Source: Candidatus Iainarchaeum sp.
GTDB lineage: Archaea; Iainarchaeota; Iainarchaeia; JAADDC01
Assembly (NCBI GenBank): GCA_030445695.1
Contig: JASUTF010000019.1
Span: forward strand, 1-10,060
Length of the DNA: 10,060 nucleotides
Direction: 5' to 3'
Each line of letters begins with the position of its first letter. Position 1 is the first letter of the stretch. Both the position numbers and the translations under genes were made by a program. Under the pieces are notes generated by a model. The model saw only the letters and a list, made by a program, of their open reading frames with translations. It was not told the DNA's origin and did not search any database. Positions 2,694 to 9,691 of this stretch are shown in pieces.

Positions 2694-2739
2694 GCGAGCA
2701 CCTCCTCGAACGTGAACGTAAAGTAGAGGGGGAAATGGA

Positions 2740-2750
2740 TTAATAAAAGG
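2740..2750 (-). promoter_or_regulatory. TATA box of the eL41 gene
   Basis: On the minus strand this reads CCTTTTATTAA. Its centre is about 26 nt before a predicted transcription start near 2719, leaving a short leader with the AGGAGG site. It also lies just downstream of the hairpin region and provides the first T cluster that could end transcription coming from tRNA-Glu. Read on the plus strand, TTAATAAAAGG could equally direct transcription into the hairpin region. Confidence 0.55.
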
Positions 2751-2754
2751 TGAT

Positions 2755-2774
2755 GTTATGCTCCGGCCGGGATT
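2755..2774. repeat. 20-nt direct repeat, copy 1 (detached 3' end of tRNA-Glu)
   Basis: These 20 bases are identical to 2885-2904. On the minus strand they hold part of the T-loop, the T-stem 3' side, the acceptor 3' side, the discriminator A and four bases of 3' flank (TAAC). One mismatch (2775 versus 2905) is followed by three more identical bases, then similarity ends. No tRNA body lies upstream of this copy on the minus strand: its T-stem partner is missing, so it cannot fold as a tRNA. Confidence 0.95.
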
Positions 2775-2884
2775 CGAAGGCCAAGTTCTTTGGCCGGACG
2801 AATGTGAGTGGGGTCTGCGACCCCACGCCCAGTGGTGCGGGCGACCGAAGCGTCGCCCTCGCCGTGGCGTTAACTGACACGGCG
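2772..2884. other. Array of four perfect-stem hairpins of unknown function
   Basis: Four inverted repeats follow each other with little spacing. The first pairs 2772-2776 with 2799-2803 and, inside it, 2779-2784 with 2790-2795 (loop of 5). The second pairs 2808-2815 with 2819-2826 (8 bp, loop of 3). The third pairs 2839-2845 with 2852-2858 (7 bp, loop of 6). The fourth pairs 2860-2866 with 2878-2884 (7 bp, loop of 11 holding GTTAAC). All listed stems are perfect. No credible reading frame occupies the stretch. It lies exactly between the two copies of the tRNA-Glu 3' end. It may be a structured RNA, transcribed from the tRNA promoter or from either strand, or a scar or recombination site. I do not recognise it as RNase P, SRP, 5S or a C/D guide RNA. 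Confidence 0.6.
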
Positions 2885-2904
2885 GTTATGCTCCGGCCGG
2901 GATT
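2885..2904. repeat. 20-nt direct repeat, copy 2 (3' end of intact tRNA-Glu)
   Basis: This is the same 20 bases as 2755-2774, here forming the genuine 3' end of the tRNA-Glu gene plus four flanking bases. The period between copies is 130 nt. A duplicated tRNA 3' end is the usual footprint of tyrosine-integrase integration (attL/attR), although the interval is far too short for a working element. Confidence 0.95.
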
Positions 2905-2963
2905 TGAACCCGGGTCTCGGGCTCGAAAGGCCCGAATGCTTGACCGGGCTACACCACCGGAGC
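2889..2963 (-). tRNA. trnE: tRNA-Glu (anticodon TTC)
   Basis: On the minus strand the 75-nt sequence folds as a complete cloverleaf. Acceptor GCTCCGG pairs with CCGGAGC, and discriminator A follows. The anticodon stem CGGGC/GCCCG encloses loop CTTTCGA, giving anticodon TTC at 2927-2925. The T-stem CCGGG/CCCGG encloses loop TTCAAAT. The D-arm has the usual GG in its loop and two G-U pairs in its stem. There is no intron, and CCA is not encoded, as is common in archaea. It decodes GAA and, by wobble, GAG. There is no T-run directly after the 3' end, so the primary transcript may continue into the hairpin region. Confidence 0.97.
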
Positions 2964-2966
2964 ACA

Positions 2967-3030
2967 AGATAGCAGTAGAATGCATTGGAGGAATGCTTTA
3001 AAGCGATGAGGATTATCAGCACTGCTATCT
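2967..3030. promoter_or_regulatory. tRNA-Glu promoter: palindromic TATA inside a 10-nt inverted repeat
   Basis: The palindrome gctttaaagc (2995-3004) is centred 36 nt upstream of the tRNA 5' end and fits an archaeal TATA box for the minus strand. It is flanked by agatagcagt (2967-2976) and its exact reverse complement actgctatct (3021-3030), whose midpoint is within 1 nt of the TATA midpoint. A smaller inverted repeat, gcatt/aatgc (2982-2986, 2992-2996), lies between. The inverted repeat is seen directly; a role in binding a dimeric regulator is inference. Confidence 0.5.
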
Positions 3031-3070
3031 CTCATCATCCTGGCGTCAGCCGAAACCTCCTTCATCACCA

Positions 3071-5325: not shown

Positions 5326-6189
5326 GTGAAGTTCAGGGTTTTGGCCTCCGATTCGCTGGGGGTCCGGTCCCTCGCAACGAGCGTTGACGCGGGCGGAGTA
5401 AAGATTCTAATAGACCCCAGTGCCGCCCTCGGCCCAAGAAAGTATGGTCTTCCCCCGCACGAACTGGAGGAACAGGCGCTGGCTTACGCCACGGATCTGA
5501 TCAGAAGGGAGGTAGAAGGTGCGGACATCGTTGTGTTCACGCACTACCACTGGGATCACTACGACCCTGGCCTCCCGCTGGAGGGAAAGACCTTATTCGT
5601 GAAGGATCCGAAGAACAACATAAACCTCTCTCAAAGGAAGAGGGCAGCGCTCCTGGAATACGAAGCGATCCCCGCGGACGGGAAGAGATTCGACATAGGG
5701 CCCGAAGAGATCGTTTTCTCGCCGCCGCTGCCACACGGGCCGGAAGGGACAAAGCTGGGATACGTCATCGCCGTGAAGATCGGGGACCTTCTGTTCTCCT
5801 CCGACATCCAGGGGCCCGTGAGTGAGGGGGCAGCGGAGTGGATCATTGAGCAGAATCCGAAGACCATCATCATGGACGGGCCGCCCACGTATTTTCTGGG
5901 CTACCGCTTCTCCGTCGATAGCAGGGACGCCGCCCTGCGAAACCTTGAACGCATAATGGAGAAGACAGACGTCCGTGAGATAATACTGGATCACCACCTT
6001 ACCAGGGATCTAAAGCGGGAGGAGAACTTCCCCATCTACGCGAAGGGGGAGGAGTACGGGGTGAAGATAAAGACGGCGGCGGAGCACAGGGATCTTGACA
6101 ATCTCTTCCTGGAGGCGTGGAGGAAGGAACTGTGGAAGGGTGAAAAAGAGATAGACCCCAATATTGTAAGGAGGGTATACAATGAATGA
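5326..6189 (+). CDS. UPF0282-family metallo-beta-lactamase-fold hydrolase
   Basis: This 287-residue protein begins MKFRVLASDSLGVRSLAT and continues with LIDPSAALGPRKYGLPPHELE, the hallmark N terminus of the archaeal UPF0282 family. The metallo-beta-lactamase metal site is visible: HYHWDH (H73, H75, D77, H78), a later His (H137), Asp in FSSDIQGP (D160) and His in LDHHL (H223/H224). Family members lack a firmly established substrate; the fold includes nucleases and other hydrolases. The GTG start at 5326 is chosen because the family begins there and because it lies 28 nt after the TATA box. Longer in-frame starts run through the promoter and the ssb coding region. There is no ribosome binding site, so leaderless initiation is likely. 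The stop overlaps the reverse gyrase start by 8 nt, indicating one operon. Confidence 0.88.
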   Translation: MKFRVLASDSLGVRSLATSVDAGGVKILIDPSAALGPRKYGLPPHELEEQALAYATDLIRREVEGADIVVFTHYHWDHYDPGLPLEGKTLFVKDPKNNINLSQRKRAALLEYEAIPADGKRFDIGPEEIVFSPPLPHGPEGTKLGYVIAVKIGDLLFSSDIQGPVSEGAAEWIIEQNPKTIIMDGPPTYFLGYRFSVDSRDAALRNLERIMEKTDVREIILDHHLTRDLKREENFPIYAKGEEYGVKIKTAAEHRDLDNLFLEAWRKELWKGEKEIDPNIVRRVYNE

Positions 6190-9100
6190 AAAGGCCATAT
6201 TCGTCAACCTCTGCCCCAACTGCGAGGGAGAGATAAAGGACACGCGCCTACGCATAAAGAACCCCTGTGATGTTTGCATCCCTGAAGAGGTCCACTCAGA
6301 GAGGTATGAGGAACTCGTATTCGAGATATACGACCGCCTTGTGAAGAACGATCGTCTCGAGAAGTATAGAACGGTCTACGAGGTTGTTTCCCGTTTAAAG
6401 GACTTCAACGAGTTCTTCAAGCGGGCAATAGGGTCGGAACTGTGGAGCGCCCAGAGGACATGGGCAAAGCGTGTGTTTCTGGGCAAGTCCTTCTCCATTG
6501 TAGCGCCGACGGGCATAGGAAAGACGGCCTTCGGCATGGCACTCGGTCTCTACCTCGCCAGAGAGGGAGAGAAGATCTACTTCATCCTGCCAACGTCTAC
6601 CCTCCTCCAGCAGGTAAGTCAGCGTCTAAAGGAGTATGCAGAACGCTCGGGAACCGATGCAAGAATCCTGACGATACACGGGAAGATGGGGAAGAAGGAA
6701 AGGGAGGAGGCAAACAAAGCGCTGAAGGAGGGGGAGTTCGACATCCTCGTTACGACGTCACAGTTCCTCACGCGCAACTTCGACAAGATAAAACATGTGC
6801 CCTTCGATCTCGTGTTCATAGATGACGTTGACGCGTTCCTGCGGGCGTCTAAAAACATCGATCGCGTTCTCATGCTCCTCGGCTTCACGGAGGAGATCCT
6901 GAACGACGCATACGAGCTCATAAAGGCGAAGTTCACGCTGGCGTTCCGGCCCAACGATCAGAAACTTAGGAAAAGGGTTAATGAGCTTCAGGGGAAGATC
7001 GAGGCGTTCAAGGAGAAAAACAGAGTAGGCCAGATCATCGTGGCATCCGCAACGGGCCGTGCGGCAGGGATCCGCGTCAAACTCTTCAGAGAACTGCTGG
7101 AGTTCGAAATTGGAAGCACGAGGGCAAACCTAAGGAACATTATAAACACGTACACGACCCTGGAAGACCCGAGGAGGCAGACAGTCGAACTCGTGAAGAA
7201 ACTGGGCAGCGGCGGACTGGTCTTCGTACCCGTGGATCAGGGGCAGGACTTTGCAAAAGAGTTAACAGAACATCTGAACAGGGTGGGTGTCAAAGCGATG
7301 CTTGCCACCTCTGAAAACGCCCAGAAGGTCCTTGAGGCACTCCAGAAGGGGGAGATAGACGTAGCCGTTGGCATGGCCGCATACTACGGCGTTCTCGTCC
7401 GCGGGATAGACCTGCCAGAAGTCATAAAATACACTGTGTTCACGGGGGTACCGAAGTTCAAGTTTACCCTGCGCTTCGAGAACGCCCCGCCGAGACGTGT
7501 AGCATACATGTTAGACGTGGTTGCAGATGTTCTGGAGGACCAGAAGAGAGCCACGGAGCTGAGGCGACTCGCCAATCAGATCAGAAGAAGGAACAGGGAA
7601 GAGGACGTCGAAAGGGGGAAGATGCTGCTCCAAGAGCTCCTCGAGAACAGAGATATACTGGAAAAGCTGAAGAAGAGTGAGGACGTCGTGATAATAGAGG
7701 AGGAGGGCGTTCCAAAGATACTCATAGCGGACGCGAAGACGTATATACAGGCAACGGGAAGAACATCAAGGATGTACGCCGGTGGGATTACTCCGGGCTT
7801 CTCCGTTGTTCTGGTGGACGATGAACGCGTCTTCGGCCAGCTAAGGAGATACATGCGCTACGTGCTCGACGAGGAATTCGCACCACTGCAGGAAGTGAAC
7901 ATTGAAGAGATAAAGAGGCAGTTAGAGGAAGAGAGAAGGAAGAAAGGCAGAATCATGGAGGACCCTGTTAAAACGGTGCTATTCGTTGTCGAATCGCCAA
8001 ACAAGGCAAGAACCATTGCACGGTTCTTCGGCTCGCCATCCACATACCGCATAGGGAACATAAGGGCCTACGAGGTGGCCACGGGAAAGTACGTTCTCAA
8101 CATCATCGCCACGAAGGGACACATGTTCGATCTCGTTACGGACAGGGGGTTCCACGGCGTCCTTGTTGGGGAACGGTTCGTGCCAGTATACACGACCATA
8201 AAGTTATGCAGGCGTTGCGGCGTCCAGACCGTGGAGGACAAGTGTCCGGTCTGCGGATCTGACCAATATCTGGACGATGCAATATGGAGGGTCAATGCAC
8301 TCCGCCTCTTCGCCCTGGAGAGCGATTTCGTCATAATAGGCACGGACCCTGACCGCGAGGGTGAGAAGATAGCGTGGGACACCGCGCTGGCCATAAGTCC
8401 ATACGTGCCGACGATAACGAGGGCGGAATTCCACGAGGTCACGAGATCGGCAATCCTGCGCGCACTGGAGGAGACCAGGGAAATCAACGAGAATCTTGTG
8501 AACGCACAGATCGTCCGGCGTGTGGAGGACAGGTGGATTGGCTTTGAGCTGTCAAAGAAACTCTGGGAAGCGTTCAACAACAACACGCTGTCCGCGGGAC
8601 GTGTGCAGACCCCCGTGCTGGGCTGGGTGGTAAAACGCTACGACGAGCACCAGAAGAGCGTCCGCGTGTTCATCGACGCTCGTGCAGACGGAGTGAGGGT
8701 GAGCTTCGAGACGCCCTTTGCAACACAGACGGAAGCACAGAAGTACGCGGAAGGGAAGAAACTTGTGGTAAAGATCAAGAACCGCAGAGAAGAACACGTC
8801 AATCCGGCACCACCGTTCTCCACCGACGCCATGCTGCGAGAGGCGGGAGAGAGAATGGGACTCGGGGCAAAGGACATCATGCAGCTGGCGCAGGACCTCT
8901 TCGAGGCAGGTCTCATCACGTATCACAGAACGGACTCCACACACGTGTCCCCCGCCGGAATGGCCCTCGCGAAAGAGTACATAACCCAGCGTTTCGGAGA
9001 GGAGTACTACAAGGGGCGGCCATGGGGTGAAGAAGGGGCCCACGAGTGCATAAGACCGACCAAGCCCATGGACACGGATACACTTATACGCCTGCTCCGC

Positions 9101-9691
9101 GAGGGTGAGTTAAATATTCAGGGGCTGACGAAGAGCCATCTATACCTTTACTCCATCATATTCGAGCGTTTCATGGCATCGCAGATGAGGGAGGCGGTCG
9201 TGAAGAAGGCAGACGTGGTTTATGAACTCGGCGAGCTGAAAACAGAGTCCACGATCATTGAGGAGGTTGTCGAACCGGGCTGGACGCTCATCAGGCCCCT
9301 CAGAACGGCAAAAATAGAGGAAGGAGAATACATGCCGGAGGAAATAAGAACGTTCAAGATGGCCACCGTTCCGTTATACTCCCAGGCAGACCTCGTGGCC
9401 CTTATGCGGGAAAGGGGAATAGGAAGGCCGTCTACATACGCCACGATCATACAGAAGCTGCTGGATCGGGGATACGTTAGAGAATCAAAGACCAAGAAAC
9501 GCCTGTTCCCGACGCCGCTTGGAATAAGGGTCTACGAGTACCTCTCCACAAACTATGGCCAGCTTGTATCGGAAGAGCGGACCAGAGAGCTTGAGGAAAC
9601 GCTGGACGCCATAGCAGAGGGCAAAAAGGACTATCAGGAAGCGATAAGGGAGACGTATGAGGAGATAAGGGAGGCAGTGGGCGTTGATTGA
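6182..9691 (+). CDS. rgy: Reverse gyrase
   Basis: Reverse gyrase introduces positive supercoils using ATP and is found in thermophiles, nearly all hyperthermophiles. The chain of 1169 residues is full length and has no intein. In order it shows an N-terminal zinc finger (C11, C14, C29, C32) and a helicase-like module with WSAQRTW (Q91), Walker A APTGIGKT (108-115), DDVDA (214-218), SATGR (289-293) and QATGRTSR (523-530). The topoisomerase IA module follows with toprim E604 (VVESPNKA), a second zinc finger (C676, C679, C688, C691), TDPDREGE (721-728), SAGRVQTP and the catalytic Tyr914 in GLITYHRTDST. RGIGRPSTYATI lies near the C terminus. All key residues are present, so it should be active. 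The start overlaps the UPF0282 stop by 8 nt, with AAGGAGGG about 7 nt upstream. Confidence 0.98.
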   Translation: MNEKAIFVNLCPNCEGEIKDTRLRIKNPCDVCIPEEVHSERYEELVFEIYDRLVKNDRLEKYRTVYEVVSRLKDFNEFFKRAIGSELWSAQRTWAKRVFLGKSFSIVAPTGIGKTAFGMALGLYLAREGEKIYFILPTSTLLQQVSQRLKEYAERSGTDARILTIHGKMGKKEREEANKALKEGEFDILVTTSQFLTRNFDKIKHVPFDLVFIDDVDAFLRASKNIDRVLMLLGFTEEILNDAYELIKAKFTLAFRPNDQKLRKRVNELQGKIEAFKEKNRVGQIIVASATGRAAGIRVKLFRELLEFEIGSTRANLRNIINTYTTLEDPRRQTVELVKKLGSGGLVFVPVDQGQDFAKELTEHLNRVGVKAMLATSENAQKVLEALQKGEIDVAVGMAAYYGVLVRGIDLPEVIKYTVFTGVPKFKFTLRFENAPPRRVAYMLDVVADVLEDQKRATELRRLANQIRRRNREEDVERGKMLLQELLENRDILEKLKKSEDVVIIEEEGVPKILIADAKTYIQATGRTSRMYAGGITPGFSVVLVDDERVFGQLRRYMRYVLDEEFAPLQEVNIEEIKRQLEEERRKKGRIMEDPVKTVLFVVESPNKARTIARFFGSPSTYRIGNIRAYEVATGKYVLNIIATKGHMFDLVTDRGFHGVLVGERFVPVYTTIKLCRRCGVQTVEDKCPVCGSDQYLDDAIWRVNALRLFALESDFVIIGTDPDREGEKIAWDTALAISPYVPTITRAEFHEVTRSAILRALEETREINENLVNAQIVRRVEDRWIGFELSKKLWEAFNNNTLSAGRVQTPVLGWVVKRYDEHQKSVRVFIDARADGVRVSFETPFATQTEAQKYAEGKKLVVKIKNRREEHVNPAPPFSTDAMLREAGERMGLGAKDIMQLAQDLFEAGLITYHRTDSTHVSPAGMALAKEYITQRFGEEYYKGRPWGEEGAHECIRPTKPMDTDTLIRLLREGELNIQGLTKSHLYLYSIIFERFMASQMREAVVKKADVVYELGELKTESTIIEEVVEPGWTLIRPLRTAKIEEGEYMPEEIRTFKMATVPLYSQADLVALMRERGIGRPSTYATIIQKLLDRGYVRESKTKKRLFPTPLGIRVYEYLSTNYGQLVSEERTRELEETLDAIAEGKKDYQEAIRETYEEIREAVGVD

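Follow-up and report, generated by a model that had tools for sequence, protein, structure and literature searches.

Large integrative elements are known to land at tRNA genes, and organelles are known to contain hairpin elements. In the mitochondria of fungi and sponges, hairpin elements, double-hairpin elements and GC clusters have been described as short, non-coding, dispersed and apparently mobile sequences, the mechanism of which is unknown (PMC2800124). The window analyzed here (the whole stretch of DNA, 10,060 nt) comes from the genome of a Candidatus Iainarchaeum species, referred to as G000; nine relatives, G001 to G009, were compared with it, giving ten family genomes in all. Beside its tRNA-Glu gene lies an interval that is best explained, with a probability of roughly 0.6, as a non-autonomous, structured, tRNA-gene-specific mobile element whose insertion duplicates the tRNA end; we infer its mobility from its distribution. 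The element family is non-coding, ∼60–200 nt in length, composed of modular hairpins and found only beside tRNA genes. A ∼100-nt gene-less element family confined to tRNA genes, and present at more than half of the tRNAs of an archaeon, was undescribed in the open-licence literature searched.

The inserts resemble the mitochondrial hairpin elements in consisting of single or multiple hairpins whose stems differ by complementary substitutions. However, the mitochondrial elements occupy many intergenic regions, rRNA genes and protein genes, whereas the archaeal inserts occupy tRNA genes only; moreover, the Allomyces elements are without flanking duplications, whereas the archaeal inserts are flanked by a copy of the tRNA end (PMC2800124). 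Strict tRNA targeting, two classes of element and a compact host genome are shared with the Dictyostelium elements TRE5 (upstream) and TRE3 (downstream) and with yeast Ty3, although these are protein-coding retrotransposons that insert near the gene and outside it (PMC5006619). The archaeal inserts, by comparison, are ∼100 nt long, carry no gene, have their junctions in the D-loop or T-loop and duplicate the tRNA end, and no reverse transcriptase was found in G000. Overall, the elements work most like mitochondrial hairpin elements combined with the tRNA targeting of TRE and Ty3.

Among prokaryotic systems, the Sulfolobus MITEs SMN1 and SM3A are likewise short, ORF-less, multi-copy and presumably mobilised in trans, but MITEs have a partner IS transposase as well as terminal inverted repeats and small direct repeats (PMC3718332), whereas the inserts described here lie at tRNA genes only and no partner was found for them among four enzyme families in G000, G001, G003 and G008. 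The tRNA fragments that integrases of mobile elements and viruses generate are similar in that a whole tRNA and a partial copy of its end bracket an insert; those inserts, however, measure ∼9–23 kb and derive from large elements, whereas the hairpin inserts measure ∼0.1 kb, occur at more than half of the tRNAs and are found at both ends of the gene (PMC9897764). Casposons show variable target duplications (1–27 nt, median 15), some of them beside tRNA 3′ ends, but they carry cas1 and polB, and Cas1 was found here only in the element-poor G005 and in G002 (PMC4046053). A mobile element at the tRNA-Thr gene of Caldiarchaeum also has a 5′ tRNA fragment upstream of the whole tRNA, around the insert, but its insert is 1.8 kb long, contains a predicted recombinase gene, occupies one tRNA locus and is linked to intron gain (PMC3293823). 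For integrase scars, casposons and retroelements alike, the inserts failed on the defining features that were tested.

The features of the tRNA-Glu site are collected in Table 1. The original prediction, made from the letters of the window, had reported a repeat of the tRNA-Glu end, and this was recovered as GTTATGCTCCGGCCGGGATTCGAA in the outer copy and GTTATGCTCCGGCCGGGATTTGAA in the inner copy (23/24 identical, 130 nt apart); the four gene-less hairpins that it had placed between the repeats are likewise present in the spacer. The 135-nt region folded with −64.5 kcal/mol on the tRNA strand (z = −4.5), and a z-score of −3.3 was obtained for the plus strand. The only open reading frames that span the insert also run over the tRNA, on both strands, and for this reason the insert holds no credible gene. 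The right-end hairpin of this insert was also found at tRNA-Cys, tRNA-Leu and others, and in the relatives.

Table 1. Features of the tRNA-Glu site in the window.
Feature	Position	Strand	Basis
tRNA-Glu(TTC), intact gene	2888..2964	−	ARAGORN; Rfam RF00005, 61.5 bits
Inner copy of the duplicated end: tRNA-Glu T-loop to 3′ end plus 4 nt of flank	2885..2908	−	Repeat comparison
Insert, 106 nt, four hairpins, no gene	2779..2884	−	Folding, ORF list
Left-end hairpin module AACCGCCGTGTCAGTTAACGCCACGGCG; AACCGCCACATCGGTTAACGC in relatives	2860..2884	−	Folding
Hairpin GGGCGAC-GCTTCG-GTCGCCC; frame GCGA..GCAC common to other copies	2839..2858	−	Folding, sequence search
Central-type hairpin GTGGGGTC-GCA-GACCCCAC; reverse complement of that at other tRNAs	2808..2826	−	Sequence search
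Right-end hairpin GGCC-AAAGAACTT-GGCC; abuts the outer T-loop copy	2779..2795	−	Sequence search
Outer copy of the tRNA-Glu 3′ end, TTCGAATCCCGGCCGGAGCATAAC	2755..2778	−	Repeat comparison
Oligo-T tract 3′ of the outer copy, candidate transcription terminator	2739..2750	−	Sequence
TATA-like box CTTTAAAGC of tRNA-Glu, ∼35 nt upstream of the gene	2995..3003	−	Sequence

Other copies near tRNA genes, by which the original prediction could be checked, were found at most tRNAs of G000. This genome was covered by sequence searches and in individual stretches. When it was searched with the window region, hairpin motifs were seen to adjoin many other tRNA genes, and the same insert-plus-copy layout was observed around most of them. 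In the downstream class (Glu, Cys, Val, Ser, Leu and Pro), the tRNA is followed by the insert and then by a second copy of its own 3′ end, starting from the T-loop; in the upstream class (Ile, Asn, Thr, Gly, Arg, Ala, Pro and Leu), a copy of nt 1 to ∼15 is followed by the insert and the whole tRNA. The host tRNA is whole in both classes, and both occur together at two proline tRNAs. The local tRNA end is duplicated at ∼40 sites, and many inserts of G001 have no end copy. Flank sequence repeated elsewhere in the same genome was found at 25 of 39 tRNAs in G000, 28 of 43 in G001, 23 of 41 in G002 and 25 of 33 in G008, but at only 4 of 30 in G005, in a census that rests on BLAST thresholds and on draft MAGs.

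The copied end tracks the local tRNA despite differences between isoacceptors, as seen at two arginine tRNAs (GTGGCGTAG versus GTGGCCTAG). Among the 186 tRNA genes of five genomes, downstream copies matching at 19–20 of 20 positions numbered 6, against 1 in 930 mismatched comparisons, and upstream copies matching at 14–15 of 15 positions numbered 19, against 3 in 930; in these controls, local tRNA ends were compared with the flanks of other tRNAs. In other families of the class, an upstream copy was found at 1 of 101 tRNAs and a downstream copy at none of the 101, and 0/15 was obtained for other prokaryotes. A 1171-nt query of eleven inserts matched G000 at tRNA loci only, and the two matches at contig ends carry a copied alanine tRNA end. 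In the regions of the relatives that were examined, no core hairpin is more than 307 nt from a tRNA; copies unconnected with a tRNA were found neither there nor with the insert query in G000. Outside the family, the core pattern gave isolated matches only, none of which is a hairpin. At one tRNA-Ala(CGC) (L365) of G012, which belongs to a different family of the class, the 5′ end is copied at 14/15 positions ∼100 nt upstream, and the stretch between this copy and the tRNA holds hairpins and a further partial copy, which suggests a similar arrangement outside the family.

The inserts appear to turn over between sites and species. For the repeat-bearing flanks, a different tRNA within that genome provided the best match in 20/27, 30/32, 25/30 and 27/27 cases, and copies are more like the inserts of other tRNAs within the genome than like the insert at the orthologous site. 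The Glu-TTC site carries an insert in G000, G001 and G002 but none in G004 (a member of the same genus), G005 and G006; more filled and empty orthologous sites were observed in the comparison of tRNAs among five genomes. A central hairpin inverted with respect to the tRNA was seen in G007 and at some other sites.

The compensatory changes in the stems, by which the original prediction could also be checked, were found. The core hairpin, within the frame GCGGGT...ACGCAC, occurs in 26 distinct forms, in which 6 of 8 pairs are changed on both sides and 96.2% are paired. Doubly changed cells numbered 37, against 11.9 ± 2.3 in shuffled data, a comparison in which related copies are not independent; pairing was lost when the partner was slid. 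In one submotif, 24 of 27 instances have a GNRA loop, and all four bases occur at its second position. The covariation and the GNRA loops favour selection on a folded RNA, and a single-stranded DNA recognised by its structure would also be possible from these sequences. The GC content is higher in the inserts (∼62%) than in the window (54%). Rfam scans of the inserts gave weak chance matches only, none near the gathering score. A known RNA family was rejected as an identity for the inserts, as a permissive scan yielded only noise related to tRNA and, outside the insert, a box C/D-like match.

The placement of transcription signals was compared between the tRNAs and their copied ends. Of 20 outer 5′ copies, 10 have a TATA-like hexamer 21–45 nt upstream; at the tRNA proper of filled sites it is present in 1 of 20 (87 of 158 for copy-less tRNAs). 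Similarly, TTTT within 40 nt followed the outer 3′ copy in 9 of 21 filled cases and the tRNA itself in 2 of 21. The insert therefore lies inside the tRNA transcription unit, as insertion with duplication predicts.

Upstream duplications were 15–21 nt long in 17 of 19 cases, the other two being longer tandem arrangements at leucine tRNAs of G008. At these two (Leu-CAA, L199; Leu-TAG, L159), the duplicated block continues leftwards past nt 1 for 21–30 nt and enters the right-end hairpin, a layout resembling a stack of two elements, or a tandem duplication, in front of a single tRNA. Downstream duplications extend from the T-loop to 0–22 nt beyond the gene. The varying length of the duplication, unlike a classical transposase footprint, counts against the mobile-element reading. 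In place of the TTCRA-ATCC of the tRNA, TTCGNG-ATCC is often found in the outer T-loop, and this recurrent change indicates that the element may bring its own T-loop-like end; the changed stretch would be either element-borne or a result of selection against a second functional T-loop. Changes of the outer T-loop were seen at L083 (Glu of G000), L078 and L074 (Val), L080 (Ser) and L091 (Leu), as well as in downstream copies of G001, G002 and G008, and further variants read TTTGG-ATCC and TTCGGTA-ATCC. The end of the right-end hairpin coincides exactly with nt 1, the RNase P site, in 26 of 52 upstream repeats, and some copies are 5′-shortened with intact right ends. In some families, the left hairpin is the reverse complement of the right one (GGCCAGGTTCTCTGGCC / GGCCAGAGAACCTGGCC; AACCGCCACATCGGTT / AACCGGGATGGCGGTT, the second pair approximately), and other copies are without this relation.

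On the mobile-element reading, the element would enter the transcription unit of the tRNA at either the D-loop or the T-loop, and the stretch from the insertion point to the gene end would be duplicated at insertion. Insertions would survive because the duplication leaves a single-copy tRNA intact; only tRNA-sparing insertions would persist, and the duplication would therefore always span to the gene end. The element, being gene-less and hence non-autonomous, would be moved in trans by another activity. It is probably transcribed as part of the pre-tRNA and then removed by RNase P or tRNase Z, since the right-end hairpin abuts nt 1 in many upstream copies; this position suggests that the element RNA may be released by tRNA processing. 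That the element is a gene-less, RNA-structured parasite of tRNA genes, which is carried in the pre-tRNA, is freed by end processing, spreads by host enzymes only and has its tRNA restored by the end duplication, is a bolder proposal that we regard as rather unlikely.

Reverse transcriptase, PF00589 integrase, Y1 transposase and Cas1 were undetected in G000, G001, G003, G004 and G008, an absence that is not proof because the genomes are draft MAGs of 68–92% completeness. Among the ten family genomes, reverse transcriptase (PF00078) was found in G002 only; its two domains (L311 and L312, on G002:C1 and G002:C8) lie in very long open frames of 1607 and 1876 aa. The PF00589 integrase is present in G002, G005 and G007 and gave no match in G000, G001, G003, G004, G006, G008 and G009. 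No Y1 transposase was found in any family genome searched, and Cas1 is restricted to G002 and G005. The distribution of the four enzyme families does not track the elements. A search for an autonomous version, in the limited sequence covered around tRNAs, revealed no larger element bearing these ends. A viral carrier was rejected, as a scan of IMG/VR with two right-end patterns gave no match and one chance match inside a phage coding region.

The interpretation offered by the original prediction held in part, and of its four options a minimal tRNA-targeting mobile unit fits best. Its option of a structured RNA co-transcribed with tRNA-Glu gained partial support from the TATA-like box at half of the outer 5′ copies and from the covarying stems. 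Conserved stems and GNRA loops, which are also expected of a functional RNA, count against mobility, and the inserts might instead be cis-acting leader or trailer domains of the pre-tRNA that are under selection and homogenised by gene conversion, with a role in processing, in the insulation of tRNAs in arrays or in a switch in which the copied end would compete with the real acceptor strand. The elevated GC content, the promoter placement that implies co-transcription, the right-end hairpin abutting nt 1 and the strict association with tRNAs agree with such domains. However, inserts are missing from about one third of the tRNAs in the same genomes, and G005 has hardly any. Moreover, species differ in whether a given tRNA is filled or empty, the central hairpin is found in both orientations with respect to the tRNA, and many older-looking copies in G001 are without an end copy; cis-acting domains are accordingly a minority possibility. 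Spread at the RNA level, in which a hairpin RNA freed from the pre-tRNA is copied back beside other tRNA genes in the manner of a SINE, appears quite improbable. RNA-templated copying would give duplications of variable length fixed at one junction, as is observed, and the RNA-type structure, the right ends at the RNase P site and the 5′-shortened copies would also agree with it, but nine of the ten family genomes have no reverse transcriptase domain (two are present in G002), and insertion in both orientations does not require RNA.

The remaining options of the original prediction, a decayed integrase scar and a degenerate tandem tRNA, fared poorly. Conventional scars, left by larger tRNA-integrating elements deleted down to ∼100 nt, would account for the block of identity from the T-loop to the 3′ end, which is the classical layout, and integrated elements commonly leave tRNA fragments in archaea (PMC9897764; PMC3718332). 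Related inserts, however, occur at dozens of unrelated tRNAs with different ends, 5′-end copies are as common as 3′ copies, seven genomes including G000 are without a PF00589 match, no remnant genes were found, and the stems covary rather than decay. This origin is very improbable, being largely refuted by copy number and covariation. A tandem tRNA duplication that degenerated around a chance hairpin-rich spacer is barely credible: a partial tRNA copy does stand beside a whole tRNA, but at dozens of tRNAs the duplicated piece is always the insert-side end, cut at one of two standard points (∼nt 15 or the T-loop), the spacers form one related family, and the pattern is missing in the out-of-family controls. 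An intron of the D-loop or T-loop was also rejected, as the tRNA is whole without splicing and the duplication would be unnecessary.

If the elements are mobile, the question arises of what moves them in genomes of ∼0.7 Mb in which the four usual enzyme classes were not found; if they are functional, they would constitute an unrecognised layer of pre-tRNA architecture. They also offer a concrete source for the 5′ and 3′ tRNA fragments beside archaeal tRNA genes, and they bear on the origin of split, permuted and intron-containing tRNAs.

The host family, of the Micrarchaeota/Diapherotrites, appears to be hydrothermal, judging from isolate names and the reverse gyrase gene. This gene is full-length in the window (6182–9691, plus strand), in a genome of ∼0.66 Mb, and is consistent with a hyperthermophilic DPANN archaeon as the host. 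Just upstream of the tRNA-Glu promoter, a box C/D sRNA-like gene (GTGATGA..CTGA..ATGATGA..CTGA) was observed at 3016–3068 on the minus strand of the window. A similar box C/D-like sequence lies upstream of tRNA-Glu in G001, G003 and G004, and the copy in G001 (L048:722-781) gave weak matches to Rfam sR families.
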